Positions 13,260-28,009 are shown, counted from the stretch's first letter. The stretch: 64,000 nucleotides of DNA from Thermoleophilaceae bacterium (GCA_036378175.1 DASUWY010000079.1:1-64000), one strand, 5' to 3'. The notes: generated by a model not told the origin, from the sequence alone. Made by a program: numbers and translations.

Positions 13260-14558
13260 TCACCCCACCGGTGCCGGGTTGTTGAAGAAGTCGTTGATGA
13301 AGCTCGACGGCATGAAGCTCTGCGGATCGCCGGACACCGTTCCCGGCGTGGTGATGCTCCAGGTCGGCTCCGACCAGTCGGCCAGGTTCGCATCCGTGAT
13401 CACCGGGTTCTCGGCGACGAGGGTGTTGAGCTTCACGCCCTGCCCGGCCAGCATTCGCATGGCCACCTCGTGCAGTGCACGCGCCGCGGGCACCGGCGGC
13501 AGGCTTGTGGAAGAGGCGTGATAGCTCGACTGGTTCTGGCGCCAGTAGCCGAGGAAGCCCTTGTCCATGCCCACCTCGGCGAATGGCGGGATCGGCCGGC
13601 CCGTCTGCTTGAACGCCTGCAGCGTGCCGACGCTCTCGCCCGCCAGTGTGGTCACCCCGTCGATCTTCTGCGGGTGCGTGGCCAGGTACTTGAGGGTCTC
13701 CGACTTGGCGCCGCTCTCGGAGAACGCGCCGTAGATCTCGCCGCCCACCTTCATGCCGGGGCAGCTCTTGATCGCGTTGTCCCAGCCCTCGTTGGTCTGG
13801 TTGTCCACCGCCGCGCCCGCGAGTGCGCGTACCTCCACGACGTTGCCCTTACCGCCCATCAGCTTGGTCACGTACGACATCGTGGTGGCGGCATCGAGAT
13901 AGTTGTTGCCGTCCACGTTCACGGCGCCGTCGACCGGCACCGGGCTGAGCAGCGTGACGGTGGGGATCCCGGCGGCCTTGGCTCGCTGCACCGGGCCGTC
14001 GAACGAGTCCTGCGAGGGCGTCTCGAGGATGATCAGATCCGGGTGCGCCTGAACCAGCTGGTTGTACTGCTGGAGCTGCTGCCCGATGTCGATGTTGCTG
14101 CCGGTGGTCTTGATGATCACCTGCTTGACGTTCTTGTCCTGGCCGAAGTCCTTCTTGATCGAGTTGACTATCTGGACCTGAAAGTCGCTCACCAGCTGGG
14201 CCCAGGAGACGGCGATTGTGTACGGGCCGGGATGCGAGGGCTTCCAGTTCGCCCATGCGCTCTTCAACACCTTGACGGTGCTCTGCGGGAAGTCCGCGTA
14301 GCCACCGAGCGCCTGCTTGTGGGCGGCGTCGAGCCCGGCGATCACTCCGTCTGGATCGGCGGGCTGCTTGGCGGAGAAGCTGCCGCAGCCGGACGCCGGC
14401 GGCTTCCAGTTGGCTGCGAAGGCGGGGATCTTGGCGCCGCCCGAGCTGCTGCCGCTGCTCGAGCTGCCGCTGCCGCCGCAGGCCGCGACGAGGATCGTGG
14501 TGGACGCGACGGCAAGCGCCGTCAAGAGCTGAGTTGTTCTGGTGCGCATGTGGTTCAT
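13260..14558 (-). CDS. Sugar-type ABC transporter substrate-binding lipoprotein
   Basis: A 432-residue periplasmic-binding-protein-like lipoprotein (type I fold). It has a signal sequence with lipobox LVAAC, giving predicted lipidation at Cys27, followed by a Gly/Ser-rich linker. The middle contains the GIPTVTLLSPV and DGNNYLDAA segments typical of the ribose/CUT2 binding family, but the family usually has about 320-370 residues, so this one is long. Start ATG at 14558 (another ATG at 14549). It belongs to the ATPase and permeases at 15092-18496 but is separated from them by a small secreted-protein gene and a strong hairpin. Ligand unknown; neighbours suggest an aromatic or glycosidic compound. 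Confidence 0.88.
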   Translation of the reverse strand: MNHMRTRTTQLLTALAVASTTILVAACGGSGSSSSGSSSGGAKIPAFAANWKPPASGCGSFSAKQPADPDGVIAGLDAAHKQALGGYADFPQSTVKVLKSAWANWKPSHPGPYTIAVSWAQLVSDFQVQIVNSIKKDFGQDKNVKQVIIKTTGSNIDIGQQLQQYNQLVQAHPDLIILETPSQDSFDGPVQRAKAAGIPTVTLLSPVPVDGAVNVDGNNYLDAATTMSYVTKLMGGKGNVVEVRALAGAAVDNQTNEGWDNAIKSCPGMKVGGEIYGAFSESGAKSETLKYLATHPQKIDGVTTLAGESVGTLQAFKQTGRPIPPFAEVGMDKGFLGYWRQNQSSYHASSTSLPPVPAARALHEVAMRMLAGQGVKLNTLVAENPVITDANLADWSEPTWSITTPGTVSGDPQSFMPSSFINDFFNNPAPVG

Positions 14559-14568
14559 CGCTTGGGCA

Positions 14569-14600
14569 AAAGGGGCCGAGCGTCCTGGCTCGGCCCCTTT
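14569..14600 (-). terminator. Rho-independent terminator or attenuator hairpin just upstream of the binding-protein gene
   Basis: A perfect 12-bp inverted repeat (14569-14580 pairs with 14589-14600) with an 8-base loop. Read on the minus strand the stem ends CCCCUUUU, so it has a short U tract. It lies 11 bases after the stop of the small secreted-protein gene and ends 11 bases before the binding-protein ATG, inside the transporter gene series. Confidence 0.75.
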
Positions 14601-14610
14601 CACTTGCTCC

Positions 14611-15024
14611 CTAGTACCTGGCGGTTCCCTTGTAACGGAAGGTGCCGGTGGAGAGCTTTCCGGCGAACGTGCCCTTGCCGGTGATGCCCTTGTACTTGCC
14701 GGTGCCGGACCCCTTCACGATCCTCCAGGTGCCCTTGGCATCGTTGGCGGCGCCGGTGGTGCCGTGACCTATCAGCGTGAACTTGCCGGCACCGCACTTC
14801 CAGTGCTGGGTGGTATTCGGAATCACCAGCTTGCCGGTCATCTTGCAGGTGCCGAAGGGTGAGCCCTTGTAGGTGGAATGCACCTTGATCCCGCTCGTGC
14901 CGCCGTGACCGAGCATGTTCACCTTGTGCGACGACTTCGCGAACGCGGTGGCTACGAACGCTGTGACGAGCAGCGCGCAGAGCGCGCAGAGCAGCAGCAC
15001 GAGGCTGCGAGTCTTCCCTCTCAC
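14611..15024 (-). CDS. Small secreted protein of unknown function in the ABC operon
   Basis: A 137-residue protein with a classical signal peptide (charged MRGKTR, a Leu/Ala core to about residue 28, AFA cleavage site). The mature part is Gly/Thr/Lys-rich with alternating strand-like segments (GKYKGITGKGTFAGK, GTFRYKGTARY), resembling small beta-barrel proteins such as allene-oxide-cyclase-like or DUF3224-type folds; this is an impression only. Two cysteines (GTCKMTG, HWKCGAG) could form a disulphide. The GTG start has a strong GGAGGAG site. It sits between permease and binding protein, an unusual place for an extra exported protein. Function unknown. Confidence 0.75.
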   Translation of the reverse strand: MRGKTRSLVLLLCALCALLVTAFVATAFAKSSHKVNMLGHGGTSGIKVHSTYKGSPFGTCKMTGKLVIPNTTQHWKCGAGKFTLIGHGTTGAANDAKGTWRIVKGSGTGKYKGITGKGTFAGKLSTGTFRYKGTARY

Positions 15025-15091: not shown

Positions 15092-16066
15092 TCAGATCGT
15101 GTCCCTCAGCCGGCGATCGCGGCCGTAACCGGCCACGACGATGAGGATCAGCACGCCGAAGATGATCTGCTGGTCGGCGGTGTCGTAGCCGTGGCCGACC
15201 AGGATGGTTGTGAGCTCGGTGAGGATGAGCGCGCCGAGCACCGTGTGGGTGTAGTCGCCGCGCGCGCCCATGATGGTGGTGCCGCCGACGATGACGGCGG
15301 TGAGCCCCTGGAACAGGTACGGGTCGCCGAGCGTCTGGTCCGCACCCGAGAAGCCGGCCAGCAGCACGCCGACGATCGCCGAGCAGACGGCACTCGCCGC
15401 GAACACCACGGTCCACACGCGGGCCGTGTTCACGCGCGCTAGATCCGCGGCGCGCGGATTGGCCCCGGTGGCGTAGAGCCTGCGCCCCGGCACGGTGCGG
15501 TGCAGAACGAGGCCGGCGAGGATCGCGACCATCGCCCAGATCACCACCACCGGGCTGATGCTCACGCCGAAGGTGGTGCCGGTCGGCGACGTGAGGTTCG
15601 ATAGGAAGGTCGGTGCCGAGCCCGTGAGCTTCCCGCCCGTCCACGCGAGACAGCCGCCGGACGCGAGCGCGCCCATGCCGAGAGTGACGATCAGCGGCTG
15701 GATCCGGTAGCGGTGACAGATCCAGCCGCTGATCGCGCCCATCGCCGCGGCGAGCACGAGGATCACCGCGAACGCGGGCACGAAGGCCCAGTGGTGTGTT
15801 CCGCAAAGCTGGCTGACGAGGATCGCGCCGGCCACGATGAAGCCGGGAATCGACAGGTCGAGCCCGCCGACGATCATCACGATCGTCTGACCGAGCGCCG
15901 CGAGTCCAAGCAGCGAAGCGAGAACGAGCATCGAGCGGACGCTGGTGCTCGCGGAGAAGCCGCTGATGGTCGCGGCCCCGTAGACGAACAGCGCGATGAG
16001 CGCCACCAGTTGCAACACCGGGGCGCGCCGCTGTACACGCCCGATCGTGGCCGCGGCGGCGCTCAT
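15092..16066 (-). CDS. ABC transporter permease, ribose/xylose (CUT2/RbsC) type
   Basis: A 324-residue inner-membrane permease of the BPD_transp_2 family with about 9-10 hydrophobic segments. The family block MIVGGLDLSIPGFIV near residue 70 and ATGANPRAADLARV plus GVLLAGFSGADQ later are diagnostic of RbsC-like proteins. ATG at 16066 overlaps the upstream permease stop by 4 bases (ATGA) and has a GGAGGGAG ribosome binding site, so translation is coupled. The open frame extends upstream, but that part is out-of-frame antisense-like sequence. It forms a permease heterodimer with the preceding gene. Confidence 0.92.
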   Translation of the reverse strand: MSAAAATIGRVQRRAPVLQLVALIALFVYGAATISGFSASTSVRSMLVLASLLGLAALGQTIVMIVGGLDLSIPGFIVAGAILVSQLCGTHHWAFVPAFAVILVLAAAMGAISGWICHRYRIQPLIVTLGMGALASGGCLAWTGGKLTGSAPTFLSNLTSPTGTTFGVSISPVVVIWAMVAILAGLVLHRTVPGRRLYATGANPRAADLARVNTARVWTVVFAASAVCSAIVGVLLAGFSGADQTLGDPYLFQGLTAVIVGGTTIMGARGDYTHTVLGALILTELTTILVGHGYDTADQQIIFGVLILIVVAGYGRDRRLRDTI

Positions 16067-17028
16067 GCGGTCTCCCTCCTGAGCCCCGGCCGCAGCGTCA
16101 TCAGCCGGGCGCCCACCACCACGCCGGCCACGAGCATCCCGCCGTACACCACGCTGTTCCAGGTGGGCGGCACGTTCACCGCCGAGAGCAGGGTCTGCAT
16201 CAGATAGATCGCGAAAGCCCCGAGCGCCGAGCCCAGGAGCCCACCCCGGCCGCCGCCGAGAACGGTGCCGCCGAGCGCCACGCCCGCCAGCGCGATCAGC
16301 GTGTACTGGGCCGCGCTCGCCGCCTGGCTGGACTGCACGAGAGCGGTGAGCGCGATGCCGCCCACGGCTGCGAACAAGCCGCCCAGCGAGTAGGCGACGA
16401 TGCGCGTGGCGGTGACGTCCACGCCCGCCGAGAACGCGGTGCTCTGGTTGCCGCCCACGGCGAAGAGCTGGCGGTGGTACGAGGTGCGGCTGAGCACGAG
16501 CCACACGGCGGCCGGGACGAGGATGGTGATGAGCGCGCCGGGGAAGAACCACACCTTGTCGCCGAGGTGCGTGGTCCAGTTGCCGGGCGGCGTGGGCCGG
16601 GGGCTGGCGCCGAACTTGAGGTTCAGCCCGATCAGGATGAAGAAGGTGCAGAGCGTGGCGATCACGGGCTGGTAGCGGAGCGTCGTAACGAGCACTCCGT
16701 TCACGGCGCCGATCCCCGCTCCGATCAGGAGGATCAGCGGCACGGCCGCCCAGCCGGACTCGAGCCCGTGCGGGAAGAACTTGTGGACGAGCAGGACGTT
16801 GCAGAACACCACGAGCGGACCCGCGGAGAGGTCGAGCCCGCCGCCGCCCGAGAGGATCGAAGGCGTGGACGCCATCGCCACGATCGCGAGCGGCGCGAAC
16901 GACGCCAGCTCCTGCGGCCAGTTGCCCGGCTTGCCGAAGCTCGGCTCGGCGATGATGTTCGCCACGAGCAGCGCGAGCGAGAGCAGCAGCGCGAATCCGA
17001 ACGGCCGGCTGCGCAGGAGCTCACGCAC
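16063..17028 (-). CDS. ABC transporter permease, ribose/xylose (CUT2/RbsC) type, partner subunit
   Basis: A 321-residue permease homologous to its neighbour, with about 9 membrane segments, the SGGGGLDLSAGPLVV block (family LDLSVG motif) and FAVGGNQSTAFSAGV. A GTG start at 17028 overlaps the ATPase stop by 8 bases, and its own stop overlaps the next permease start by 4. Two different permeases in tandem match CUT2 systems that use a heterodimeric channel. Loop CDS features give no ligand information. Confidence 0.92.
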   Translation of the reverse strand: MRELLRSRPFGFALLLSLALLVANIIAEPSFGKPGNWPQELASFAPLAIVAMASTPSILSGGGGLDLSAGPLVVFCNVLLVHKFFPHGLESGWAAVPLILLIGAGIGAVNGVLVTTLRYQPVIATLCTFFILIGLNLKFGASPRPTPPGNWTTHLGDKVWFFPGALITILVPAAVWLVLSRTSYHRQLFAVGGNQSTAFSAGVDVTATRIVAYSLGGLFAAVGGIALTALVQSSQAASAAQYTLIALAGVALGGTVLGGGRGGLLGSALGAFAIYLMQTLLSAVNVPPTWNSVVYGGMLVAGVVVGARLMTLRPGLRRETA

Positions 17029-18496
17029 GCGCAGGCTCCCCGAAGAACGCCGACACGAGGGCCTGGCGGCTGAGACGAGCGCGGGGGAGCTCGCAGAAGA
17101 TCGACCCCTCCCGGAACACGATGACCCGGTCCATCAGCTCGACGTGCTCGTCGAGCTCCGACGAGAGCATCACCACGCCGACGCCCTGCGCCGTCAGCTC
17201 GGCGAGCAGCGCGTACAGGTCGCGCTTGGCGCCGAGGTCCACGCCGCGGGTGGGGTCGTTCAGGAGGAGCACCTGCGGATCGGTGGCGAGCCAGCGCGCC
17301 ATCACGACCTTCTGCTGGTTGCCACCGGACAGCGTGGTGACCTGGTCCTCGGGATCGCCCATCGTGATCCGAAGCCGCTCGGCGTAGCGGGCCAGCCTCG
17401 CGCGCGTGCGCGTGTGCGAGATCAGCCCGCGGCGCACATCCTGCGAGAGCGTCGGAAGCGCGAAGTTCTCGCGTACGGACTTGGACTCGAAGAGGCCCTC
17501 GGCGCGACGCTCTCGCGGAACGTAGGCGGCGCGCACGCCGGCCTCGTGGCCGGCGCGCCAAAGCTCCTTGAGGAACTCGTCCTGGCCGTGGCCCTCGAGC
17601 CCCGCGAGGCCGATCATCTCGCCCGCGCGCACATCCAGGCCGCCGTGGCGGAGCAGCGTCTCGCCCGGCTCCCGCCGCGCCGCCTCGTCGCGGGCGGCGG
17701 CGGGCGCCAGGTGATCCGCACCCGTCATGAGCCGCACCAGCTCCTCGCTTGTGGCCTGGCCGCGCTCGAGCGTGGCGACCGTCTCGCCGGAGCGCATCAC
17801 CGTGCAGCGGTCTCCCACCTCGCCGATCTCGTCCATGCGGTGCGAGATGAAGATCACGCCCACTCCCTCCGCGGCGAGGCGGCGGAGGATCGCGAATAGG
17901 CGGTCGCGCGTGGCCACGTCGAGCGCCGAGGTGGCCTCGTCGAGAATCAGGATGCGCGGGTTGCGCACGAGCGCCCTGGCGATGCAGCACGCCTGGCGGT
18001 CCGACAGCGAGAGCGCCTCGGCGGGCAGGTCGAGCGGGGGAGCCGCGCCGAGCAGCTCGGACAGCACCGTGGTGGCGCGCTCGCGCTTGGTGGCGGAGGG
18101 GGTGCGATCGCGGAACAGGCCATCGGTGCCCACCCACACGTTCTCGAGCACCGACCTCGGCTCCACCACCAGCACCTCCTGGAACACCGTCGCCACACCG
18201 GCGCGCATCGACTCCTTCGGGGTGGCCAGGTGATCCACCGTCGTGTGGCCCACGGTGATCTGGCCGCTGTCCGGCCGGTGTACCCCCGCCAGCAGCTTGA
18301 CGAGAGTGCTCTTGCCCGAGCCGTTCTCGCCCACGATCGCGTGGATCTCGCCCGCGCGAACCTCGATTGACGCGGACCGGAGCGCCTGCGTGGCGCCGAA
18401 AGCCTTTGCGGCGTCAGTGACGCGGAGGGCCACCTGCTGAGCCGGCGCGGACGTCCGATCGTTGTCGGCGGAACGCTCCGCCGCAGGCTGAAGCAA
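17021..18496 (-). CDS. Sugar ABC transporter ATP-binding protein, double-domain (RbsA type)
   Basis: A 491-residue fused tandem ATPase. Domain 1 has Walker A GENGSGKST (56-64) and Walker B RILILDEAT, but its signature is degenerate (LSLSDRQ where LSGGQ is expected). Domain 2 has a degenerate Walker A (GLEGHGQDE), a good signature LSGGNQQK and Walker B VLLLNDPT. A degenerate second Walker A is normal for RbsA proteins. The TTG start at 18496 is supported by an excellent GGAGGAGGAG site 9 bases upstream. It is the first gene of the transporter operon and divergent from the TetR gene, with three dyad repeats between them. Confidence 0.93.
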   Translation of the reverse strand: MLQPAAERSADNDRTSAPAQQVALRVTDAAKAFGATQALRSASIEVRAGEIHAIVGENGSGKSTLVKLLAGVHRPDSGQITVGHTTVDHLATPKESMRAGVATVFQEVLVVEPRSVLENVWVGTDGLFRDRTPSATKRERATTVLSELLGAAPPLDLPAEALSLSDRQACCIARALVRNPRILILDEATSALDVATRDRLFAILRRLAAEGVGVIFISHRMDEIGEVGDRCTVMRSGETVATLERGQATSEELVRLMTGADHLAPAAARDEAARREPGETLLRHGGLDVRAGEMIGLAGLEGHGQDEFLKELWRAGHEAGVRAAYVPRERRAEGLFESKSVRENFALPTLSQDVRRGLISHTRTRARLARYAERLRITMGDPEDQVTTLSGGNQQKVVMARWLATDPQVLLLNDPTRGVDLGAKRDLYALLAELTAQGVGVVMLSSELDEHVELMDRVIVFREGSIFCELPRARLSRQALVSAFFGEPARA

Positions 18497-18546
18497 CAGA
18501 AACTTCTCCTCCTCCGAAGGTCCGGGCCGGCCGTCCGGCCTACCTA

Positions 18547-18564
18547 GAACTCGAAGGCCGATTC
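18547..18564. promoter_or_regulatory. Candidate TetR operator, copy 1
   Basis: GAACTCGAAG followed by GCCGATTC: left half-site GAACTCGAA with the TCGAAG-N5-TTC core shared with four other sites; the right half is the weakest of the set. It lies about 50 bases upstream of the ABC ATPase start. Confidence 0.55.
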
Positions 18565-18574
18565 GCCGCTACAC

Positions 18575-18597
18575 GAACTCGAAGTTGGATTCTAATC
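18575..18597. promoter_or_regulatory. Candidate TetR operator, copy 2
   Basis: Left half GAACTCGAAG, then five spacer bases and TTCTAATC as right half (GATTAGAA when reversed). Same TCGAAG-N5-TTC core as copies 1 and 3-5. Central in the TetR/ABC-transporter divergent region, 28 bases after copy 1. Confidence 0.6.
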
Positions 18598-18651
18598 ACG
18601 GCTGAAAAGTGCTGTCAAGACGGTCTTTAGGATTCACCTCGGCCATGGGCA

Positions 18652-18676
18652 GAATTTCGAAGATGTGTTCTAATTC
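18652..18676. promoter_or_regulatory. Candidate TetR operator, copy 3 (best dyad)
   Basis: The clearest inverted repeat of the set: GAATTTCGAA on the left and TTCTAATTC on the right (reverse GAATTAGAA), about 25 bases in all. It ends 6 bases before the TetR ATG, where no ribosome binding site is visible, so a bound repressor would cover the regulator's own start region. Confidence 0.65.
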
Positions 18677-18682
18677 GGACTG

Positions 18683-19384
18683 ATGGCCAAACGCGCCACA
18701 GCCCAGCCGAGCTCCGAGCCTCTGATCCGCCCACCGCTTCAGCGGCGCAGCCAGGAGTCGCTCGAACGCGTGCTTCAGGCGGGCGCCGAACTGCTGCTCG
18801 AGGTCGGCTACGAGGGCTTCACGCTCCAGGAGGTGAGCAAGCGCTCGGGTGTCTCGATCGGCTCGATCTACGCCCGCGCACCGAGCAAGGAAGCGCTGGT
18901 GCTCGCCATCTACGACAGGGAGATGGCCAAGGTGTCCGCGGCCAACGAGCGCCTGCGGGAGACCGCCCAGCTCGAGGGGTTGAAGGGCCGCGAGCTGATC
19001 ATCGCGCTCGTGGACCTGATGGCCCGGAGCACTCTCGAGCACGCGGGCATCCTGCGCGTGTTCATGTACCGCGCGCTGATCGATCCGGAGATCTGGCAGC
19101 GCGGGTCCGATCGCTCCACGGAGCTTTCGCGGGCGTTCGAGGAGGCTCTGCTCGAGCACAGGGACGAGCTCAACCACCCCGACCCGGAGCTGGCGATCGA
19201 CGTCGCCTTCCGCATGGTCTACTGCACGCTCGTTCGCCGCGTGTCACACGGCGACAACTTCGAGTCGCAGCGCCCGCTCAGTGACGAGGACCTGATCCGC
19301 GAGCTGGGCGAGGCGGCCGCGGACTACCTGCTGGCGCCCGAGCTGCCGCGCCAGCGCCGCAAGCCGGCCCAGCGCAAGCGCTAG
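18683..19384 (+). CDS. TetR/AcrR-family transcriptional regulator
   Basis: A 233-residue one-component regulator. The N-terminal helix-turn-helix covers about residues 28-75 (ESLERVLQAGAELLLEVGYEGFTLQEVSKRSGVS broken into helices, then IGSIYARAPSKEAL), followed by an all-helical ligand domain and a basic Arg/Lys tail. TetR proteins usually repress their neighbours until a small ligand binds. It is divergent from the ABC operon and convergent (4-base overlap) with the dioxygenase. Three dyads in its upstream region and two more at the divergent catabolic promoters make it the likely regulator of the whole locus. The ATG at 18683 has no Shine-Dalgarno sequence, so a leaderless transcript is possible. 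Confidence 0.92.
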   Translation: MAKRATAQPSSEPLIRPPLQRRSQESLERVLQAGAELLLEVGYEGFTLQEVSKRSGVSIGSIYARAPSKEALVLAIYDREMAKVSAANERLRETAQLEGLKGRELIIALVDLMARSTLEHAGILRVFMYRALIDPEIWQRGSDRSTELSRAFEEALLEHRDELNHPDPELAIDVAFRMVYCTLVRRVSHGDNFESQRPLSDEDLIRELGEAAADYLLAPELPRQRRKPAQRKR

Positions 19385-20379
19385 CTGCGCGAAACCGGGT
19401 TGGCGGTGTAGTCCACCTCGGCGGCCGCGCGGCCGCGCGCGCCCGGAGGGATGGGGACCATGTGCACCGCCGGCATCTGGATCTCGGTCCGGTAGGTGTT
19501 GTTCGGACCGTCCTCGATCCCCCACCGCACCGGCTCCCAGTCCGGGACGTAGTTGCGGTAGCCGCCCGAGTTCAGCTCGTAGCGCAGGCCAGCAGGGTCA
19601 CGGAAGTAGAGGTAGTTCTGCTCGCCGATGCCGTGCTGGCCGGGCCCGAAGTCGATGTCGTAGCCGTGCTCGACGAGGAAGGTGGCGCCCTTCGTCAGGT
19701 CGTGGTTCGTCTCCACCCAGTAGGCGAGGTGGTGGTGCCTGCCCGGGATGCCGTCGAAGTCCTGCACGAGGCCGAGGTCATGCGACTTCTCGTTGGTGCT
19801 GTTCACGCTGAAGAGCCACGGCGCTCCGGGCGCGGGCTCGATGTACGCCATCGTGCGGAAGCCGAGCACCTCGTGGTACCAACCGCTCTGGTCGCGGACG
19901 TCCGGCGTGGTGACGGTGAGGTGGTCCACCATGCGCACGGCGATGCCGCGCGAGCCGGCACGCTGCGGACGGTCCGGCAGCGGCGACTCCTCGCCCTCAG
20001 GCGCCGCCGCTCGCTCCACTTCCCAGACGAGCTCCAGCGTGTGCCCGCCCGGTCCCACGAAGCGGTAGGCGCGGCCATGTCCCACCGACGAGTCGATCCA
20101 TTCCCCCGTCGACCCGGCGGCCTCGACCCTGCGGACAGCCTCGTCGAGCTGCTCAGGGCCGTCAGTGCGCCATGCGGCGTGCGCGATACCGGGCTCGTCG
20201 GCCGCGGTGAGGATCAGGCTGTGGGCGTAGTAGTCGCCCCAGCAGCGCAGGTACACGGAGTCGCCGGCCTCCTCCACGACATCGAGGCCGAGAACGTCCA
20301 CCGCGAACTGCACAGACTCGGCCAGCGACGGCGTTAGCAGTTCGACGTGCACGAGCTGTGACAGCAGGCGGTAGGGCAT
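19381..20379 (-). CDS. Extradiol (catechol 2,3-dioxygenase-like) ring-cleavage dioxygenase, VOC superfamily
   Basis: A 332-residue two-domain type I extradiol dioxygenase, which would open a catechol-like ring next to its two hydroxyls using Fe(II) and O2. Candidate metal ligands in the C-terminal domain are His153 (MVDHLTV), His217 (in GRHHHLAYWV) and Glu268 (LRYELNSGG), with spacing like catechol 2,3-dioxygenases. The N-terminal domain (LVHVELLTPSL) is the inactive repeat. ATG at 20379 has a GAGAGGAA ribosome binding site. It is divergent from the second MetE-like gene across a region with a candidate operator. Confidence 0.88.
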   Translation of the reverse strand: MPYRLLSQLVHVELLTPSLAESVQFAVDVLGLDVVEEAGDSVYLRCWGDYYAHSLILTAADEPGIAHAAWRTDGPEQLDEAVRRVEAAGSTGEWIDSSVGHGRAYRFVGPGGHTLELVWEVERAAAPEGEESPLPDRPQRAGSRGIAVRMVDHLTVTTPDVRDQSGWYHEVLGFRTMAYIEPAPGAPWLFSVNSTNEKSHDLGLVQDFDGIPGRHHHLAYWVETNHDLTKGATFLVEHGYDIDFGPGQHGIGEQNYLYFRDPAGLRYELNSGGYRNYVPDWEPVRWGIEDGPNNTYRTEIQMPAVHMVPIPPGARGRAAAEVDYTANPVSRS

Positions 20380-20408
20380 TGGCGGTTCCTCTCTCCGGTC
20401 TTGTTGCA

Positions 20409-20454
20409 GAAATGAAACACGAATTTGCGTTCGAAGTCCAGTTCGGGTTCAATG
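20409..20454 (+). repeat. 46-bp repeat, copy A (inverted relative to copy at 25136-25181)
   Basis: The first 36 bases (20409-20444) are identical to the minus strand of 25181-25146; two mismatches follow and then 8 more identical bases. It lies in the 80-base divergent region between the dioxygenase and the MetE-like gene and contains candidate operator copy 4. Confidence 0.9.
20430..20450. promoter_or_regulatory. Candidate TetR operator, copy 4
   Basis: TTCGAAG, five bases, then TTC, two bases and GTTC, giving the TCGAAG-N5-TTC core and a right half-site GAACCCGAA when reversed. It lies 51 bases from the dioxygenase start and 9 bases before the MetE-like start. Confidence 0.6.
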
Positions 20455-20459
20455 CGCGA

Positions 20460-21533
20460 ATGATCGAGTCACGCCGCGGCGACGTGCTGCTGGTCGGCAG
20501 CCTCCCCTTCGACACCGCAGAGGACGCCATCAGCGCCGCGGCGGAGCACCTCGGCGACCACCTGCCGGCGATGGGCGACGGTGAGGTGGGCCTCCGCAAG
20601 CTCTGGATCGGCTTCCTGCCGATGACGATCTACTCCAAGCATCCGGCGCTCGAGACCCTGCGCGCCCCGGAGGGCGGGGTTCCGAAGCCACACCACTCGG
20701 ACGTCTATGAGGCGGCCTTCCTGTTCGGCATCAGGCCGGGCCAGAAACTCCGGTTCGAGACCACTGGGTACGGACCCATCGCGGTCGAGTCCTACGGGGT
20801 GTTCAAGCGGCTGCGCGACCGGGGCGAGGTCCCCGAGGGTGTTCGCTTCCAGGTGACCTTCCCGGGCACCGGCAGCGCCATCTCGTACTTCTTCCGCGAG
20901 GAGGACTGGCCCGCGGCACACGCCGCCTACCACGACGCCATCCGGCGCGACATCGGGCTGATCCTCGAGCACGTACCGGCGTCCGAGCTGCAGTTCCAGT
21001 TCGATCTCGCGCAGGAGTTCGTGGACATGGCTTCCGGGGACGCGAAGGGCATTGCGGACTGGCCGGCGGCAACGCTCGAGGAGAAGATCCAGCGCCACGC
21101 CTCCACCCTGCCGGAGATGACGCGGGCGGTGCCCGAAGAGGCGCGCCTCGGCTTCCACTGGTGCTACGGCACGTGGGGCGGCTGGCCGATGAAGGACATG
21201 GCGGACCTCGGCCTCTGCGTGCGGATGACGAGAGAGGCGGTGGCGCGCGTGGACCGGCACGTGGACTACGTGCACATGCCGGCGCTCAAGCACCCGCAGC
21301 CCGAGTTCTTCGCGCCGCTCGCCGACTTGAACGGCGCGGACGTGGACGTGTATCTCGGGATCATCCATCACACGGACGGCGTCGATGGGTTCAGCGAGCG
21401 GATGACGATGGCGCGCCGGTACCGCGAGCGCTTCGGCATTGGATCGGTGTGCGGCTACGGCCGCGTGGACCCCGCGGAGTTGCCCCAGATCCTTGCCGTG
21501 CACCGCGATTGCGCGGCGGCGCTCCGCGCATAG
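20460..21533 (+). CDS. MetE-like (UROD/MetE superfamily) zinc methyltransferase, second copy in the locus
   Basis: A 357-residue single-barrel protein. A MetE-type zinc site is visible: His233 and Cys235 in GFHWCYGTWG and Cys331 in SVCGYGR, matching the HxC and late-Cys pattern of the MetE catalytic domain. It differs greatly from the MetE-like protein at 12093-13256, so the two are not a recent duplication. The start is uncertain: ATG at 20460 is preferred, because the in-frame upstream ATG at 20412 lies inside a repeat whose other copy is non-coding. Divergent from the ring-cleavage dioxygenase and followed 30 bases later by a flavin monooxygenase. A demethylating or methyl-accepting role in catabolism is inference. 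Confidence 0.8.
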   Translation: MIESRRGDVLLVGSLPFDTAEDAISAAAEHLGDHLPAMGDGEVGLRKLWIGFLPMTIYSKHPALETLRAPEGGVPKPHHSDVYEAAFLFGIRPGQKLRFETTGYGPIAVESYGVFKRLRDRGEVPEGVRFQVTFPGTGSAISYFFREEDWPAAHAAYHDAIRRDIGLILEHVPASELQFQFDLAQEFVDMASGDAKGIADWPAATLEEKIQRHASTLPEMTRAVPEEARLGFHWCYGTWGGWPMKDMADLGLCVRMTREAVARVDRHVDYVHMPALKHPQPEFFAPLADLNGADVDVYLGIIHHTDGVDGFSERMTMARRYRERFGIGSVCGYGRVDPAELPQILAVHRDCAAALRA

Positions 21534-21563
21534 CGCCATGGCCGACTCGATGCTGGTGGTCGC

Positions 21564-22667
21564 ATGAGGGCGCTCATCGTGGGAGGCGGGCCAGCGGGCC
21601 TGTGCGCGGCGATCGCGCTCGCGCGCGAGGGAGTGGAGTGCAACATCGTCGAGCTGTCCACGGACTGGCGGCCCGCGGGGGTGGGCATCGGCCTCCAGAG
21701 TCCGCCGCTGCGGGCCACCAAGGCGCTCGGCCTCTTCCACGAGATCGTGGAGATCGGCCGCCCGCAGCCCGAGGTCGTCATCGCGCGCGCCGACGGCGAG
21801 CAGGTGGGCTCGATGCCGCAGGTGAACGTGAACGATCCGGGCGACCCGCCCTTCGTGAACATGAGTCGCATCGCTCTTCACGAACTGCTCGCCCGAGCGG
21901 CGGAACGGCACGGCGTGCGGGTGCGGCTGGGCATGAGCGTAGAAGCGCTCGACGGCGCGCAGGTCAGGTTGAGCGATGGCAGCGTGGAGCAGTACGACCT
22001 CGTGGTCGGCGCGGACGGCCTGCATTCGCGGGTACGGGAGCTCGCCCTGCCCCACGCGCCCACGCCGGAGTACGCCGGCCAGGTGATCTGGCGTCTCGGT
22101 GCGCGCTGTCCGGAGGGTCTGACCCGCTACACGATGATGATCGCCGGACCACACCGGATCGGCCTCGTGCCGCTCCCCTGTGACGATCTCTACCTCTGGA
22201 TGCTCGACAGCACGCTGCCGCCGGAGCGCCCGCCGCGCGAGCAGCTGCTCGGCCTCTTCCACGAGCGGATGGCGTCCTACGGCGGCTTCGCGCCTGCGGT
22301 GGCGGAACAGGCCACCGATCCCGAGCAGCTCGACTTCCGCGCTCTGCACTGGCTGCTCGTGCCGCCGCCGTGGCACCGCGGCCGCGTGGTGCTGATCGGC
22401 GATGCGGTGCACACCACCACGCCGCACATGGCGTTCGGCGCCGGCATCGCGATCGAGGACGCGGTGGTGCTGGGCGAGCTCGTTCGCGAGGGAGTGCCGG
22501 CGGAGGAGCTCGGCGACCGCCTGGTGGCGCGCCGCTTCGAGCGCTGCCGCGTGGTGGTGGAGGGCTCGCTTCAGCTCTCGCGCTGGGAGCAGGAGGGCGG
22601 GCCGCCGAATCCGAGGGCGCCCGAGCTCATCGGAGCGGCAATGGCCAAGCTGGCCGAGCCGATCTAG
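21564..22667 (+). CDS. FAD-dependent aromatic-ring monooxygenase (PHBH fold), 1
   Basis: A 367-residue class A flavin monooxygenase of the p-hydroxybenzoate-hydroxylase type, which adds a hydroxyl ortho or para to an existing one using NADPH and O2. Motifs: GGGPAGL at residues 7-13 for FAD, DLVVGADGLHSRVR (the DG motif) and VVLIGDAVHTTTPHMAFG (the GD motif). ATG at 21564 follows the MetE-like gene by 30 bases on the same strand, so they are probably co-transcribed. It converges with a 4-base stop overlap on the cupin gene. It could supply the diol for the extradiol dioxygenase. Confidence 0.93.
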   Translation: MRALIVGGGPAGLCAAIALAREGVECNIVELSTDWRPAGVGIGLQSPPLRATKALGLFHEIVEIGRPQPEVVIARADGEQVGSMPQVNVNDPGDPPFVNMSRIALHELLARAAERHGVRVRLGMSVEALDGAQVRLSDGSVEQYDLVVGADGLHSRVRELALPHAPTPEYAGQVIWRLGARCPEGLTRYTMMIAGPHRIGLVPLPCDDLYLWMLDSTLPPERPPREQLLGLFHERMASYGGFAPAVAEQATDPEQLDFRALHWLLVPPPWHRGRVVLIGDAVHTTTPHMAFGAGIAIEDAVVLGELVREGVPAEELGDRLVARRFERCRVVVEGSLQLSRWEQEGGPPNPRAPELIGAAMAKLAEPI

Positions 22668-23176
22668 TCCAGCTGTTGCGAGAACAGGTGCTCGAGCGCC
22701 TCAGCCGGGAGCCGCTCGCGCACCTCGTTCGTGAACTTCCCGTCGATCAGGATGAACGCGATGCGCGTGACCGAGTCCGTGCGGTTCTCCCACGCGTGAT
22801 CGGTGCCGCGCTGCACCACCACATCGCCGGGCCCGAGGCGCGTCTCGGAGCCGTCGTCCAGTATCAGATGGATCTCGCCCTCGAGCAGGATCCCGCAGTC
22901 CACGGACTCCGTGCGGTGCATGGGCGACGCCGCGTGCGGGTTGATGTCGACGATCCTGATCACCGTTCCATTTGGATCCGGCGGCGTGCGCAGCGGGCGG
23001 GCGGTGGGATCCGCCGGCTCCTCAGGTCTTATCGGCGCCGGGGTCTCCCCCGTGCTCCATATCTCGTGGAACACCGCGCTCGGTATCGCGTGGCTCTTCG
23101 GTACCGGGCCGTCCGACAGGACCACCGAGCGGCCCGCCGCGTCGTGACCTGTGACCACGCGTCGTGGAACAGCCAT
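22664..23176 (-). CDS. Small cupin-domain protein
   Basis: A 170-residue single cupin. The two conserved motifs are present: HRTESVDCGILLEGE (motif 1, metal-binding His/Glu) and GDVVVQRGTDHAWENR (motif 2). It begins 2 bases after the flavin monooxygenase stop, so it is translationally coupled to it. Small cupins of this kind in aromatic-degradation operons act as dioxygenases, isomerases or ligand sensors; the sequence does not decide which. No signal peptide. Confidence 0.88.
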   Translation of the reverse strand: MAVPRRVVTGHDAAGRSVVLSDGPVPKSHAIPSAVFHEIWSTGETPAPIRPEEPADPTARPLRTPPDPNGTVIRIVDINPHAASPMHRTESVDCGILLEGEIHLILDDGSETRLGPGDVVVQRGTDHAWENRTDSVTRIAFILIDGKFTNEVRERLPAEALEHLFSQQLD

Positions 23177-23178
23177 GC

Positions 23179-24309
23179 TCAAATCGGCGCCATGGCGGCC
23201 ATCGTCACCTCGGTGCGGAGCTCCGTCGGATTGACGGGCAGCGAGTGGTCGATCTCCCAGCGGCCGATCGTCTCCGAGCCCTCCACGATCATCTTGCAGC
23301 GGTCGTAGCGGCGCTCCATGTATGCGTCGAGTGCGGCGTCGAGCGACTGATCGCCCGAGAGCTCCTGCGAGAGCACGATGCCATCCTCGATCGCCTGCGC
23401 GGCGCCCTGGCCACAGTGGGGCGAGGTGGCGTGGGCGGCGTCACCGATGAGCACCACCCGCCCGCGGTGCCAGGGCGGCGGCACCAGCACGTTCTCCACC
23501 GGCCGGTACACCACGCCCTCGTCGTCCGCCACCAGCTCGCGATGCTCGGCCACCAGGCCCCCGAACTGCTGCAGCCGCTCGCGGTACACCTCCGCGATTC
23601 CCCTGGTGGGCAGCTTGAGCGGCTCACCCTCCGGCGGCTTCTCGATGGTGAGCATGTACATCAGGTCGTCGGCAAGCGGCACGAAGCCGGCGGTGCCGGT
23701 GGCACCGATGTACACCCAGATCTTCTCGAGCCCCTCGATGCGCGGGAGGTTGTAGCGCCAGCACACCTGGCCCGTGAACTTGGCGTGCGGCGCGTCCGGG
23801 AACACGCTCTGGCGCACCTGTGAGTAGAGGCCGTCGGCGCCCACCACCAGGTCGTACTCGCGCGTATCGCCGTCCGTGAACTGCACAGTGACGCCGTCGC
23901 CGTGATCCTCGAGCGAGGTGAACGTGACGCCGGTGCGCACGTCCGCGCCCGAGTCGAGCGTGTGTGTTTGGAGGATGTTGTGAAGGCGCGGGCGTGTGAT
24001 GCCGTTGCCGGGCGGGAGCCCCTCAACGAGCGGTGGCCAGTCGTTGTCGGCCAGCTCGGTCTGGCCGTCGGCCAGCCAGGTGCGATCGCCCACGATCTGA
24101 TGGCCCTGCGCCACCGCCTCCTTCGCCAGGCCAAGCTCGTTCAGGGCGCGCAGCGCGTTGCCCGGCTGGATGATCCCGACGCCGTACACGTCCCACGCCG
24201 GGTTCTTCTCCACCATGTCCACCGCGAAGCCGGCGCGCCGCATCGCGATGGTGGTGCAGAGGCCGCCGATGCCACCCCCCACCACGAGGATCTTCTGAAC
24301 GTGGGTCAT
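23179..24309 (-). CDS. FAD-dependent aromatic-ring monooxygenase (PHBH fold), 2
   Basis: A 376-residue class A flavin monooxygenase related to the one at 21564-22667 but clearly distinct. Motifs: GGGIGGL near residue 11 for FAD, DLVVGADGLYSQVR and VVLIGDAAHATSPHCGQG. Such enzymes include salicylate and 6-hydroxynicotinate hydroxylases. It lies between the cyclase gene (43 bases upstream) and the cupin (2 bases downstream) in a minus-strand operon driven from the 25118-25206 divergent region. Two ring hydroxylases in one locus suggest either two successive hydroxylations or two substrates. Confidence 0.93.
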   Translation of the reverse strand: MTHVQKILVVGGGIGGLCTTIAMRRAGFAVDMVEKNPAWDVYGVGIIQPGNALRALNELGLAKEAVAQGHQIVGDRTWLADGQTELADNDWPPLVEGLPPGNGITRPRLHNILQTHTLDSGADVRTGVTFTSLEDHGDGVTVQFTDGDTREYDLVVGADGLYSQVRQSVFPDAPHAKFTGQVCWRYNLPRIEGLEKIWVYIGATGTAGFVPLADDLMYMLTIEKPPEGEPLKLPTRGIAEVYRERLQQFGGLVAEHRELVADDEGVVYRPVENVLVPPPWHRGRVVLIGDAAHATSPHCGQGAAQAIEDGIVLSQELSGDQSLDAALDAYMERRYDRCKMIVEGSETIGRWEIDHSLPVNPTELRTEVTMAAMAPI

Positions 24310-24352
24310 CCCGTCTCCTTCACGTTGATGCCGGACCTCGAAGCCGTGGCCA

Positions 24353-25117
24353 TCAGGAGCTGTCCTCGACCAGCGCCACCACGCGCGCGGGCGCGGCGCT
24401 CGCGCCCTTGATCTTCAGCGGGAAGCAGGCGACGGTGAAGCCGGTTCGCGGCAGCGCCCCGAGGTTGGTGAGGCGCTCGATCTGCGAGTAGGGCAGGTCG
24501 CACTGGTGCGCGGACCAGAGAATTCCCTTCTCGTCGCGCGCCATCGCCTCCTTGGCCTGCCGGTCGAGCGGCGCGTCCCAGCCCCAGGCATCGATGCCCA
24601 TCACGCGCACCCCGTAGTCGAACAGCCAGCGCGTGGCCTCTGCGGTCACGCCCGGGCCGCGCCACATGAAGTCACGCTCGTGGTAGAAGGCGTCGCGCCC
24701 AGAATGCACGAGCACGATGTGGCCGGGCGAGAGCTCGTGGCCCGCGTCCGCGATGCCGCGCTCCATGTCCTCGCGCGTGAGAGCGTCCCCGTCCTCGCGC
24801 CGGGTGGCGTCCACCACCACGCCCGGGCCGAAGAACCAGTCGAGCGGCAGCTCGTCGATGGTCTCGGCGGGCGAGCCGCCGATCTCCGAGTTGTAGTGCC
24901 ACGGCGCGTCGAGATGGGTTGTGGCGTGGGTGCCGATCGAGAGGCGCTCGCCGGCCGGACCCTCCTCGTTGCGCAGGAGCCGCCGCGGGATGCCGAGCAG
25001 CTTCTCGAACTCCCCGGCACCCTCCTCGTGGCTGCCGTACGACACGTCGGTGCGCAGGAAATCCGGCGTCCCCTCGGGCGACGGCTCGATCCAGTGCGAC
25101 AGGTCGATGATGTTCAC
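24353..25117 (-). CDS. Cyclase-family metal-dependent hydrolase (kynurenine-formamidase-like)
   Basis: A 254-residue protein of the cyclase/KynB family of Mn or Zn hydrolases, which split amides, lactams or lactones (kynurenine formamidase, isatin hydrolase). It starts with NIIDLSHWIEPSPEG, where D and H are typical, and has the metal motif TTHLDAPWHY. I choose GTG at 25117 because GGAGGGAG lies just upstream; the ATG at 25138 has no ribosome binding site. First gene of the operon with the flavin monooxygenase and cupin. Its role is probably hydrolysis of a ring-derived lactone or amide. Confidence 0.85.
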   Translation of the reverse strand: MNIIDLSHWIEPSPEGTPDFLRTDVSYGSHEEGAGEFEKLLGIPRRLLRNEEGPAGERLSIGTHATTHLDAPWHYNSEIGGSPAETIDELPLDWFFGPGVVVDATRREDGDALTREDMERGIADAGHELSPGHIVLVHSGRDAFYHERDFMWRGPGVTAEATRWLFDYGVRVMGIDAWGWDAPLDRQAKEAMARDEKGILWSAHQCDLPYSQIERLTNLGALPRTGFTVACFPLKIKGASAAPARVVALVEDSS

Positions 25118-25135
25118 TCCAGCTCCCTCCGCCGC

Positions 25136-25181
25136 CATTGAACTAGAACTGGACTTCGAACGCAAATTCGTGTTTCATTTC
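25136..25181 (-). repeat. 46-bp repeat, copy B (inverted relative to copy at 20409-20454)
   Basis: The minus strand from 25181 to 25146 is identical to 20409-20444, and 25143-25136 matches 20447-20454. Here the frame corresponding to copy A hits an in-frame TAG, so the conservation is not for protein coding. It lies between the divergent cyclase and FAH genes. Confidence 0.9.
25140..25160. promoter_or_regulatory. Candidate TetR operator, copy 5
   Basis: Minus-strand TTCGAAG, five bases, TTC, TA, GTTC: the same core as copies 1-4 with right half GAACTAGAA when reversed. It is 23 bases upstream of the cyclase GTG and 47 bases from the FAH start on the other strand. Confidence 0.62.
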
Positions 25182-25206
25182 GCTACTCGGAGAGGAGGAG
25201 CTGTTC

Positions 25207-26136
25207 ATGCGCGTCGCCAGAATTGAGCTCGAGGGCTCGCCGGTCACAGCCATCGTCGAAGCGGACGCGGTCCGGCCGCTGCCAGGAGTCGGGGTACTCG
25301 AGCTCCTCACCGGCGGGTCGGCCGAGGCGGAGGCAGGCTCGCCCATCCCGCTGAGCGACGTCCGCCTGCTCTCCCCGATCGAGCCGGCGTCGGTGCGCGA
25401 CTTCTCGGTGTTCGAGCAGCACGGCGAGGGCGCGAGCATGGCGCTCGGCGGGCCGGACGCCAAGGTGCAGGACGCGTGGTACGAGCGGCCGGCCTTCTAC
25501 TTCTCCAACCCCCACGCGACCACGGGGCCGGGCGACGCGATCGAGCCACCTGCCGAGTCCACCGGTCTGGACCTCGAGCTCGAGGTGGCCGTGGTGATCG
25601 GCCGGCGCGCCAGGAACGTCTCGGTGGAGGAGGCCGAAGCGTGCATCGTCGGCTACACGATCTTCAACGACTGGTCGGAGCGCGCGCTCTCGGCACAGGA
25701 GGCGCGCCTGCCATTCGGCTTCCACAAGGCCAAGGACTTCGCCAACACGTTCGGCCCGTGGATCGTCACCCCCGACGAGCTCGAGCAGTACCGTGACGGC
25801 GACCGTCTGAACCTGCGCATGACCGCCTACGTGAACGGAACCGAGATCGGAGGCGACACGCTGGCCAGCATGGCCTGGAGCTTCCCCGAGCTCGTGCACT
25901 TCGCGGCGCGCGGCGCTTGGATCGCGCCGGGTGACGTGATCGGCAGCGGCACCTGCGGCGGTGGCTGCCTGTTCGAGCTGTGGGGCCGCAACCAGGCGCA
26001 GGAGCCGCCGCCACTCAAGCCGGGCGATGAGGTTCGCCTGGAGGTCGAGGGGATCGGCGCGCTCACCAACACGGTGGGCGAGTTCCAGCCCGACCTCCCG
26101 GCGCTGCCGCCGGCTCGGAGCCGCGCACGCGCGTGA
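25207..26136 (+). CDS. Fumarylacetoacetate-hydrolase (FAH) family protein, 1
   Basis: A 309-residue FAH-superfamily enzyme; family members hydrolyse or isomerise or decarboxylate beta-dicarbonyl ring-cleavage products with Mg or Mn. The metal region is visible: LDLELEVAVVIG supplies acidic ligands and TIFNDWSER the Asp, followed by the substrate block FGFHKAKDFANTFGPWIV. Strong GGAGGAG site before ATG 25207. First of three overlapping genes (next starts inside its stop), so it is translationally coupled to the second FAH protein and the amidohydrolase. It is divergent from the cyclase operon over candidate operator 5. Confidence 0.92.
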   Translation: MRVARIELEGSPVTAIVEADAVRPLPGVGVLELLTGGSAEAEAGSPIPLSDVRLLSPIEPASVRDFSVFEQHGEGASMALGGPDAKVQDAWYERPAFYFSNPHATTGPGDAIEPPAESTGLDLELEVAVVIGRRARNVSVEEAEACIVGYTIFNDWSERALSAQEARLPFGFHKAKDFANTFGPWIVTPDELEQYRDGDRLNLRMTAYVNGTEIGGDTLASMAWSFPELVHFAARGAWIAPGDVIGSGTCGGGCLFELWGRNQAQEPPPLKPGDEVRLEVEGIGALTNTVGEFQPDLPALPPARSRARA

Positions 26137-27077
26137 CCCGCTTCGCGTTCGGGACCTTTGCCGCCGCGGACGGCGAGCCGTTCTCAGGGCTCGTCGTCGA
26201 CGAGCGGGTGCACGACCTCCGGCCGGAGTTCGCGGACACGCTCTCGATGCTGCAGGACTGGGACGCGTCGCTCGCGCGACTGCGCGAGCTGGCCGGCTCG
26301 CCGCCTGGCGACGGCGTCGCACTTGAGGACCTTCGGCCGCTCCCCCCGGTCCACCCGTCCGGCCAGGTGCTCTGCGGCGGGGCCAACTACCACAAGCACC
26401 TGCACCAGATGGTGGTGGCGCACCTCAGGCGCGAGGGCGACACGCGGCCGGCCGACGAGCTGCACGCCGAGGCCGTGGAGGTGGCCGCGCGGCGATCGCG
26501 CGAGGAGGACCCGTTCATCTTCGCGGGCCTGCCGAGCGCGCTGTGCGGCGCGCGCGACGACGTCGTGTTGTGGGGCCCGGGCACCGAGCACGACTGGGAG
26601 CTCGAGCTGGCCGTCGTGCTCGGGCGAGGCGGACGCGACATCCCGGAGGACGAGGCGCTGGCACACGTGGCGGGCTACACGATGGCGAACGACGTGAGCA
26701 CGCGCGACGTGATGTTCCGCCCCGGCTTCCCGATGACGGACTTCCTGATGACCAAGATGCGGCCCACGTTCTTCCCCACCGGTCCGTACATCGTTCCCAC
26801 GGAGTTCGTGCCCGACTATCGCGCCCTGCGGATCACGCTGAAGGTGAACGGCGAGCCGATGCAGGACGAGGGCATCGACGACATCATCCACGGCGTCGAG
26901 CAGCTCGTGTCCTACGCGTCGCGAGTGGTCGAGCTGCGTGCCGGCGATCTTCTGCTCACGGGCTCGCCGGCCGGAAACGCGGCGCATCACGGCGGCCGGT
27001 GGCTCGTGCCCAGCGACGTGATGGAGGGCGAGATCACAGGCCTCGGCATCCAGCGCAACAGGTGCGTGGCGCCCTGA
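26133..27077 (+). CDS. Fumarylacetoacetate-hydrolase (FAH) family protein, 2
   Basis: A 314-residue FAH-family protein with the blocks LCGGANYHKHL, WELELAVVLGRGGRD, GYTMANDVSTRDV and LLLTGSPAGNA, which hold the acidic metal ligands and the oxyanion region. The GTG start at 26133 overlaps the first FAH gene by 4 bases. The two FAH proteins share fold but little detailed sequence, so each may do a different step, for example isomerisation or decarboxylation and C-C hydrolysis, or they form a heteromer as in 2-hydroxyhepta-2,4-diene-1,7-dioate enzymes. Confidence 0.9.
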   Translation: MTRFAFGTFAAADGEPFSGLVVDERVHDLRPEFADTLSMLQDWDASLARLRELAGSPPGDGVALEDLRPLPPVHPSGQVLCGGANYHKHLHQMVVAHLRREGDTRPADELHAEAVEVAARRSREEDPFIFAGLPSALCGARDDVVLWGPGTEHDWELELAVVLGRGGRDIPEDEALAHVAGYTMANDVSTRDVMFRPGFPMTDFLMTKMRPTFFPTGPYIVPTEFVPDYRALRITLKVNGEPMQDEGIDDIIHGVEQLVSYASRVVELRAGDLLLTGSPAGNAAHHGGRWLVPSDVMEGEITGLGIQRNRCVAP

Positions 27078-28009
27078 TGCGCATCGACGCTCACGCCCAC
27101 GTGATCCCGCAGGCGTACGTGGACGCCATCCCGGCACCGGGCGGCAACCTGCCTAAGCCACCAGCGATGAGCGCGGGGGACCTGCTCGCAATGATGGACC
27201 GCTACGCAATCGACGCCGCGGTGATCTCCACCGGGCCGCCCGGCGCGTTCTTCGGCGACCAGCCGCGCGCCAACGAGATAGCCCGCCTGGCCAACGAACT
27301 GATCGCGGGCGCGGTGCGCGACAACCCCGGCAGATTCGCCGGGCTAGCCGTGCTGCCGCTCCCGGACCCGGACGCCGCGCTCGCGGAGCTTGCGCACGCC
27401 CTCGATGTCATGGCGTTCGACGGTGTTCTCCTCCTCAGCCATGTGGCCGGCACATACCTGGGCGACCCGTTGTGGGAGCCGCTGTACGCCGAGCTCGACC
27501 GGCGCGGCGCCTACGTGTTCCTGCACCCCACCGTGCCGGCGAACGGCGTGGTGCTCCCGCACCCGGGCTGGCTGTACGAGTTTCCATTCGACACCACGCG
27601 CGCGCTCGCGAACCTCATCTACAGCGGCACGTTTGAGCGCTACCTCAACATCCGCTGGCAGATCGCGCACCTGGGCGGCGCGACCACGGTGCTCGCCGAT
27701 CGCATTGGTTCGCTCGCCGCTCGCGAGCCGGAGAAGGCGGAGGCGGCACCCGCCGGTGCGCTCGAGTACCTGTCGCGGCTCTATTACGACACCGGCCTCG
27801 CGAACCACGAGCTCCCCTACCGCACCGCGACGATGCTCGCCCCGGCCGAGCACATCGTGTTCGGCACGGACTGGCCGTACCTCGCGATGCCCGATGAGCC
27901 TGAGGATCCGGCGCCTGGACTCGCCTTCCTCGGTGACGAGGAGCGGGCGGCGCTCGATGCCGGCAACATCGCAGCCCTTGTCCCCCGGCTGGCCGCCAAG
28001 GAGGGGTGA
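27077..28009 (+). CDS. ACMSD-like amidohydrolase (decarboxylase family), 1
   Basis: A 310-residue amidohydrolase-2 family TIM barrel. Metal ligands follow the aminocarboxymuconate-semialdehyde decarboxylase pattern: HAH at residues 5-7 (MRIDAHAHVIP), the FLHPTVP His, QIAHLGG His and the late FGTDWPY Asp. Family members are non-oxidative decarboxylases of aromatic or muconate acids, and some are hydrolases. Its ATG shares one base with the stop of the second FAH gene (TGATG), so the three enzymes are made together and probably act on consecutive intermediates. A related protein lies at 50169-51158. Confidence 0.9.
   Translation: MRIDAHAHVIPQAYVDAIPAPGGNLPKPPAMSAGDLLAMMDRYAIDAAVISTGPPGAFFGDQPRANEIARLANELIAGAVRDNPGRFAGLAVLPLPDPDAALAELAHALDVMAFDGVLLLSHVAGTYLGDPLWEPLYAELDRRGAYVFLHPTVPANGVVLPHPGWLYEFPFDTTRALANLIYSGTFERYLNIRWQIAHLGGATTVLADRIGSLAAREPEKAEAAPAGALEYLSRLYYDTGLANHELPYRTATMLAPAEHIVFGTDWPYLAMPDEPEDPAPGLAFLGDEERAALDAGNIAALVPRLAAKEG

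Follow-up and report, generated by a model that had tools for sequence, protein, structure and literature searches.

Sequence comparisons indicate that the TetR-family protein whose gene starts at 18683 is very probably an autoregulated local repressor acting on seven dyads, which are located in three divergent gaps and would control six transcription units between 11.3 and 28.0 kb of the window, i.e., the whole 64,000-nucleotide stretch of Thermoleophilaceae bacterium DNA analyzed here.

Candidate operator sites in divergent promoter regions

A sequence-only reading of this DNA had described five sites that share the core TCGAAG-N5-TTC and had placed all of them in divergent promoter regions. 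Both statements held: each of the five was found where it had been located, with the core present in all, and gene starts read from ORFs put every site between divergent genes. The first gap (186 bp), between the ABC transporter ATPase gene (start 18496) and tetR (18683), contains sites 1–3; the second, between the VOC dioxygenase gene (20379) and a gene for a MetE-like protein (start about 20460), contains site 4; and the third, between the cyclase gene (start about 25117) and FAH1 (25207), contains site 5. By the ORF reading used, these three are the only divergent gaps in the 11.3–28.0 kb region, and every one of them has sites. The core occurs exactly 5 times in 64 kb, each time inside one of the three gaps.

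Candidate operators were scored with a matrix derived from relatives only. Site 1 (18547–18564, plus strand; GAACTCGAAGGCCGATTC), in which the right outer triplet is missing, ranked seventh (score 16.6 versus 12.4 for the best non-site); site 2 (18575–18597, plus; GAACTCGAAGTTGGATTCTAATC) ranked first (23.4); and site 3 (18652–18676, plus; GAATTTCGAAGATGTGTTCTAATTC), which stops 6 bp short of the tetR ATG, ranked second (21.7). Site 4, in the VOC dioxygenase/MetE-like gap (20415–20450, plus), is composed of the overlapping dyads AAACACGAATTTGCGTTCGAAGTC and GCGTTCGAAGTCCAGTTCGGGTTC (20.5 and 19.8), and site 5, in the cyclase/FAH1 gap (25140–25175, minus), likewise has two overlapping dyads (19.9 and 20.5); in both, the second dyad overlaps the first as GAA-N6-TTCGAA-N6-TTC. 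Thus, all five sites exist, and the number of dyads in them is seven. These seven (the five originally noticed and two additional overlapping dyads, one at site 4 and one at site 5) were exactly the top 7 positions of the 64 kb, with scores of 16.6–23.4 followed by 12.4. In 50 block shuffles of the window, the best score was 11.7 on average and 19.8 at maximum, and the fifth-best averaged 7.6; by this comparison site 1 alone would not stand, whereas the set of seven does.

Because both are located in a 46-bp segment that is present twice, in opposite orientation and at 96% identity (20409–20454 and 25136–25181), sites 4 and 5 are not independent of each other, and we treated them as a single promoter cassette that has been duplicated. 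A possible translation of the segment is MKHEFAFEVQF, which raised the question of whether the repeats are the product of chance or coding similarity, sites 4 and 5 being a duplicated coding start. The core is indeed found 38 times genome-wide, and at site 4 the longest reading frame includes the segment. At site 5, however, this frame meets TAG after 11 codons, right after VQF, which argues that the segment is conserved there as DNA and rules out a duplicated coding start as the full explanation of the two sites. In addition, the same dyad was found independently in promoters of relatives, and the relatives-only matrix separated the seven dyads from the next window position, even though the best of the 50 shuffled windows reached 19.8. 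We consider an origin by chance or coding similarity extremely improbable. Separately, the presence of one 46-bp promoter segment at two divergent promoters suggests that regulons can grow by copying of operator cassettes.

Form and specificity of the motif

The asymmetric core is an off-center slice of a symmetric motif, and its asymmetry is accidental. The underlying symmetric element, 12 bp long, is GAA-N6-TTC; outer GAA and TTC triplets are positioned 3 bp from it, which gives the full motif GAA-N3-GAA-N6-TTC-N3-TTC; three of the four triplets are intact in most sites. The half-site proposed before, GAAYTMGAA, describes part of the arms and fails for the rest, the left arm of site 3 being one base longer (GAATTTCGAA). 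The same geometry emerged from a de novo search for trinucleotide dyads of the type X-Nk-X' (64 triplets, spacing 0–20) that was restricted to promoter gaps of related genomes and left out the window: GAA-N6-TTC ranked first among 1344 dyads (14 seen versus 0.22 expected) and was present in 10 of 10 gaps, GAA-N12-TTC was second (10 seen), and GAA-N3-GAA was the dominant direct repeat in these gaps.

Pattern searches of the organism's own genome (4.29 Mb) allowed us to evaluate the expectation that hits would cluster at the same genes. As originally written, the core is too common to serve as a genome probe and is non-specific (38 copies versus 20 for a reversed control), but the strict motif GAAYNMGAAN6TTC has 9 copies, of which 5 are at the locus. 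Of the remaining four, three are within coding-like frames, including two in the same ABC-ATPase gene, and the fourth is on contig 17 in no recognized coding frame. A symmetric 12-letter pattern with two mismatches was also tried as a probe and rejected, as it matched 72 places versus 34 for the control and its best three matches were within coding-like frames.

Conservation in related genomes

Relatives of the TetR protein were scarce, being detected in 11 of 399 sampled genomes of the class, including the window's own. Four of these genomes were compared at the locus: G112 and G138, which represent one genus of the same order, G148 from the same order, and G320, taken as a member of Gaiellaceae. 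In all four, the TetR gene is located within or close to a rearranged group of genes for the cyclase, FAH, VOC dioxygenase, FAD monooxygenase and cupin proteins, and in most of them the group also includes SDR and ABC transporter genes. The fraction of strict motif matches found at the orthologous cluster was 5/7 in G112, 7/9 in G138 and 5/6 in G320, where two matches in G112, and likewise two in G138, represent a single near-perfect site counted once per strand; the density of matches outside the clusters predicts only ∼0.005–0.007 per cluster. Most cluster matches were in gaps, no more than about 160 bp from gene starts. Several were flagged as lying within an ORF only through the choice of the longest frame, and one match in G138 (position 10054) may be truly intragenic. 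Gene order around tetR is rearranged in these relatives, and the dyads nonetheless remain at promoters. Comparison of the sites in related genomes revealed the same dyad at orthologous catabolic and import genes of other genera.

The GAA-N6-TTC geometry is shared with the actinobacterial LexA (SOS) box, GAAC-N4-GTTC, and the promoter of this genome's own lexA has such a dyad, the canonical Gram-positive SOS box CGAACACATGTTCG (L147, position 1439). That box fits GAAC-N4-GTTC and lacks the outer GAA/TTC triplets; of the window dyads, 0/7 fit GAAC-N4-GTTC. Moreover, the genes next to the window dyads are import and catabolic genes, and the motif clusters with TetR and its distant homologues. It is thus highly unlikely that the dyads are LexA boxes.

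A further cluster was observed on contig 120 of G148 (L046). Two additional TetR paralogues are encoded in it alongside an FAD monooxygenase and a VOC dioxygenase, and its promoters have dyads of the GAATCCGAAT type.

The TetR protein and its link to the motif

The proposed repressor of the locus (233 aa; 18683–19384, plus strand) belongs to the TetR family by its N-terminal TetR_N helix-turn-helix (PF00440, 47.5 bits, cut-off 24) and has a TetR-type C-terminal ligand domain (PF17918, TetR_C_15, 30.3 bits, cut-off 26.8). An AlphaFold2 model predicts the nine-helix TetR fold (pLDDT 86), and the Foldseek matches listed were TetR-family proteins at 14–26% identity. The protein is not a member of the named NCBIfam TetR subfamilies (ScbR, KstR, AcuR and others): no NCBIfam equivalog scored above its cut-off, the best being ScbR (42.4 of 150 bits) and KstR (28.8 of 280 bits), with PsrA absent from the models listed.

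Conserved dyads adjoin tetR both here and in homologues. We examined 40 homologues, including the window's own, with about 25–55% identity from Actinomycetota, Planctomycetes, Proteobacteria and other groups, whose starts were extrapolated from alignments. At p<0.01 (mononucleotide shuffles), the 24-bp dyad pattern was present upstream of 13/40, compared with 1/40 downstream and 0/40 inside the gene; the motif scored had been shaped partly by the window and its close relatives, and most of the 40 are outside that set. The sole downstream match was the TetR-VOC promoter of G148, which is itself a further promoter of the cluster. Upstream of a Planctomycete homologue with 33% identity, the dyad is a perfect palindrome, GAATCAGAATCAAGATTCTGATTC, and perfect or near-perfect dyads precede Planctomycete and Deltaproteobacterial homologues that have different neighbor genes. 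Of all the evidence, these upstream dyads argue most strongly that the motif goes with the protein rather than with the pathway. The other 27 homologues had no dyad at p<0.01, several of them having near-variants with N5 spacing or changed outer triplets; more distant homologues need not share the operator. The TetR of the G148 locus (55% identical) has no dyad directly upstream; it is transcribed in the same direction as FAH1, and a dyad is present at the FAH1 promoter.

Assignment of the motif to this TetR draws on association, and an alternative is that the dyads are bound by some other local or global regulator, with TetR as a bystander. No other regulator gene was recognized among the ORFs of the 11.3–28.0 kb region, and the dyad accompanies TetR homologues into genomes with different neighbors, which makes a bystander role improbable. 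It has also been reported that the majority of the TetR-family genes studied are transcribed divergently from a neighboring gene and that those less than 200 bp away are the likeliest to regulate it (PMC3511530); the ABC/tetR gap of 186 bp is within this limit, and we counted it in favor of regulation of the neighbor by TetR. The regulon, proposed previously as probable, and its assignment to this TetR, offered there as an inference, are supported at the sequence level by dyads at orthologous genes and at tetR homologues down to ∼30% identity in other phyla.

In genome G000, contig 51 has two operator-like dyads, GAAGTCGAGGTCCGGTTCCGCTTA and GAATATGAACCACGGTTCCGTTTG, 35 bp apart at about 150760–150818 (L133, around 1501), close to where another TetR-like gene appears to start.

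Genes of the locus

Judging from gene direction and spacing, the locus is likely organized in six transcription units: ABC-to-SDR, tetR, VOC, MetE-FAD, cyclase-FAD-cupin and FAH-FAH-amidohydrolase. The first of these, on the minus strand, begins with a CUT2 sugar-type ABC transporter ATPase (17021–18496; Pfam ABC_tran), followed by two permease genes identified as ORFs (15092–17028), whose orthologues in the clusters of relatives are 50–71% identical, a periplasmic substrate-binding protein (13260–14603; Peripla_BP_4) with CUT2 sugar-binding proteins as its nearest, weakly related solved relatives, a MetE-like protein (12093–13256; Meth_synt_2 in Pfam) and, at the distal end, an SDR oxidoreductase (11342–12073), an ORF with orthologues in the clusters of relatives. 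Within this operon, 14611–15024 encodes a small protein of 137 aa that is probably secreted; related proteins are encoded in the ABC operons of both G112 and G138.

The VOC extradiol dioxygenase (19381–20379, minus) was assigned by profile matches and is closest to catechol 2,3-dioxygenase. Opposite to it are a second MetE-like protein (20460–21533, plus; start inferred) and an FAD-binding_3 monooxygenase (21564–22667, plus; Pfam). The former was called MetE-like in the sequence-only reading and by our reading of its sequence; it had no Pfam or NCBIfam match, and no relatives of it were found in the genome contigs searched. Two MetE-like proteins are thus encoded inside an aromatic catabolic locus. 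The next minus-strand unit includes a putative isatin-hydrolase-like cyclase/hydrolase (24353–25117), with a GTG start at 25117 suggested by the Shine-Dalgarno-like GGAGGGAG, an FAD-dependent aromatic hydroxylase (23179–24309; PRK06847 subfamily, above cut-off), whose best solved relative is tropone 2-monooxygenase and which is also near 6-hydroxynicotinate 3-monooxygenase, and a cupin (22664–23182; Pfam). Two FAH-family hydrolases (25207–27077, plus; NCBIfam), nearest to HpaG-type and related hydrolases, are followed by an amidohydrolase-like ORF (27068–28009, plus), which was assigned to its family by sequence reading and has a relative beside an FAH gene in G112. The likely pathway logic, read from these families, is that an aromatic ring would be hydroxylated, cleaved and then hydrolyzed. 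The tropone-2-monooxygenase-like enzyme beside an isatin-hydrolase-like cyclase offers a possible lead to the substrate.

Promoters and proposed mechanism

In the 18450–25300 region, where 0.3 sigma-70-like matches were expected, the only one found was the promoter of the ABC operon (18589–18618, minus; TTGACA, 18 nt, TAGAAT; 11/12 match). Its -10 hexamer is within the right arm of site 2, and site 1 is ∼25 bp downstream of the expected transcription start. The scan recognized no sigma-70-like promoter at sites 3, 4 and 5; near site 3, TCTAAT occupies a plausible -10 position for what may be a leaderless tetR message. Reading of the G112, G138 and G148 sequences also placed operators around promoters of the TTGACA type or after them.

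The comparisons show that the sites exist, are conserved and are linked to this TetR clade; binding, repression as the direction of control and an inducer are proposed as follows. A TetR dimer, or a pair of dimers, would bind GAA-N3-GAA-N6-TTC-N3-TTC and block RNA polymerase. On the ABC-operon promoter, occupancy of site 2 would cover the -10 element, site 1 being immediately downstream, and site 3, adjoining the tetR start, would mediate autoregulation. At sites 4 and 5, bound TetR would shut the promoters of VOC/MetE-FAD and of cyclase-FAD-cupin/FAH-FAH-amidohydrolase, respectively. TetR would be freed by an inducer, most likely either the compound that is imported or an early intermediate, so that the six units are switched on together. 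We favor repression by occlusion together with autoregulation because of the positions of site 2 on the -10 element and site 3 next to the tetR start. Activation is known for some TetR-family proteins and the direction of control is not readable from sequence, but the same positions speak for repression, and a TetR that binds these sites as an activator or dual regulator appears unlikely.

Comparison with known systems

Several features of the proposed repressor have precedents. PsrA, a Pseudomonas TetR-family repressor, has the operator GAAAC-N4-GTTTC and regulates its own gene through a site immediately upstream of the ATG (-28) (PMC13104628). The GAA-N6-TTC core spacing and the autoregulatory position are common to PsrA and the locus sites; in contrast, PsrA is tied to fatty-acid metabolism and its reported site is without outer GAA/TTC triplets 3 bp further out. 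No close sequence relation between PsrA and the locus TetR was seen in our analysis. TetR proteins of the QacR, Ms6564 and CgmR type are reported to bind as a pair of dimers (PMC4486848), and two occurrences of GAA-N12-TTC at a 6-bp offset would, judging from the spacing, suit two offset dimers. In TetR/TetA-type systems, the regulator is divergent from its target and operators are in the shared gap (PMC3511530). The locus has the same arrangement, and autoregulation is expected, but a single regulator seems to serve three separate divergent gaps, with six units, in this case. PheR, a repressor of phenanthrene catabolism, was considered and set aside because it is IclR-type, not TetR. In the open literature searched, we found no published regulon of this type.

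More tentatively, an unnamed multi-phylum TetR clade might share the four-triplet operator, bound by two dimers offset by 6 bp, in which case operators and regulons of its uncharacterized members would be predictable from sequence; we regard this as possible, with the balance somewhat against it. The present data provide a strongly supported operator for a TetR clade for which no characterized member was found in the literature searched. The operator positions also delimit which genes work jointly in this pathway of aromatic catabolism in Thermoleophilia. This delimited gene set narrows the search for the substrate and inducer, and the data offer a candidate repressor-operator pair for a biosensor.
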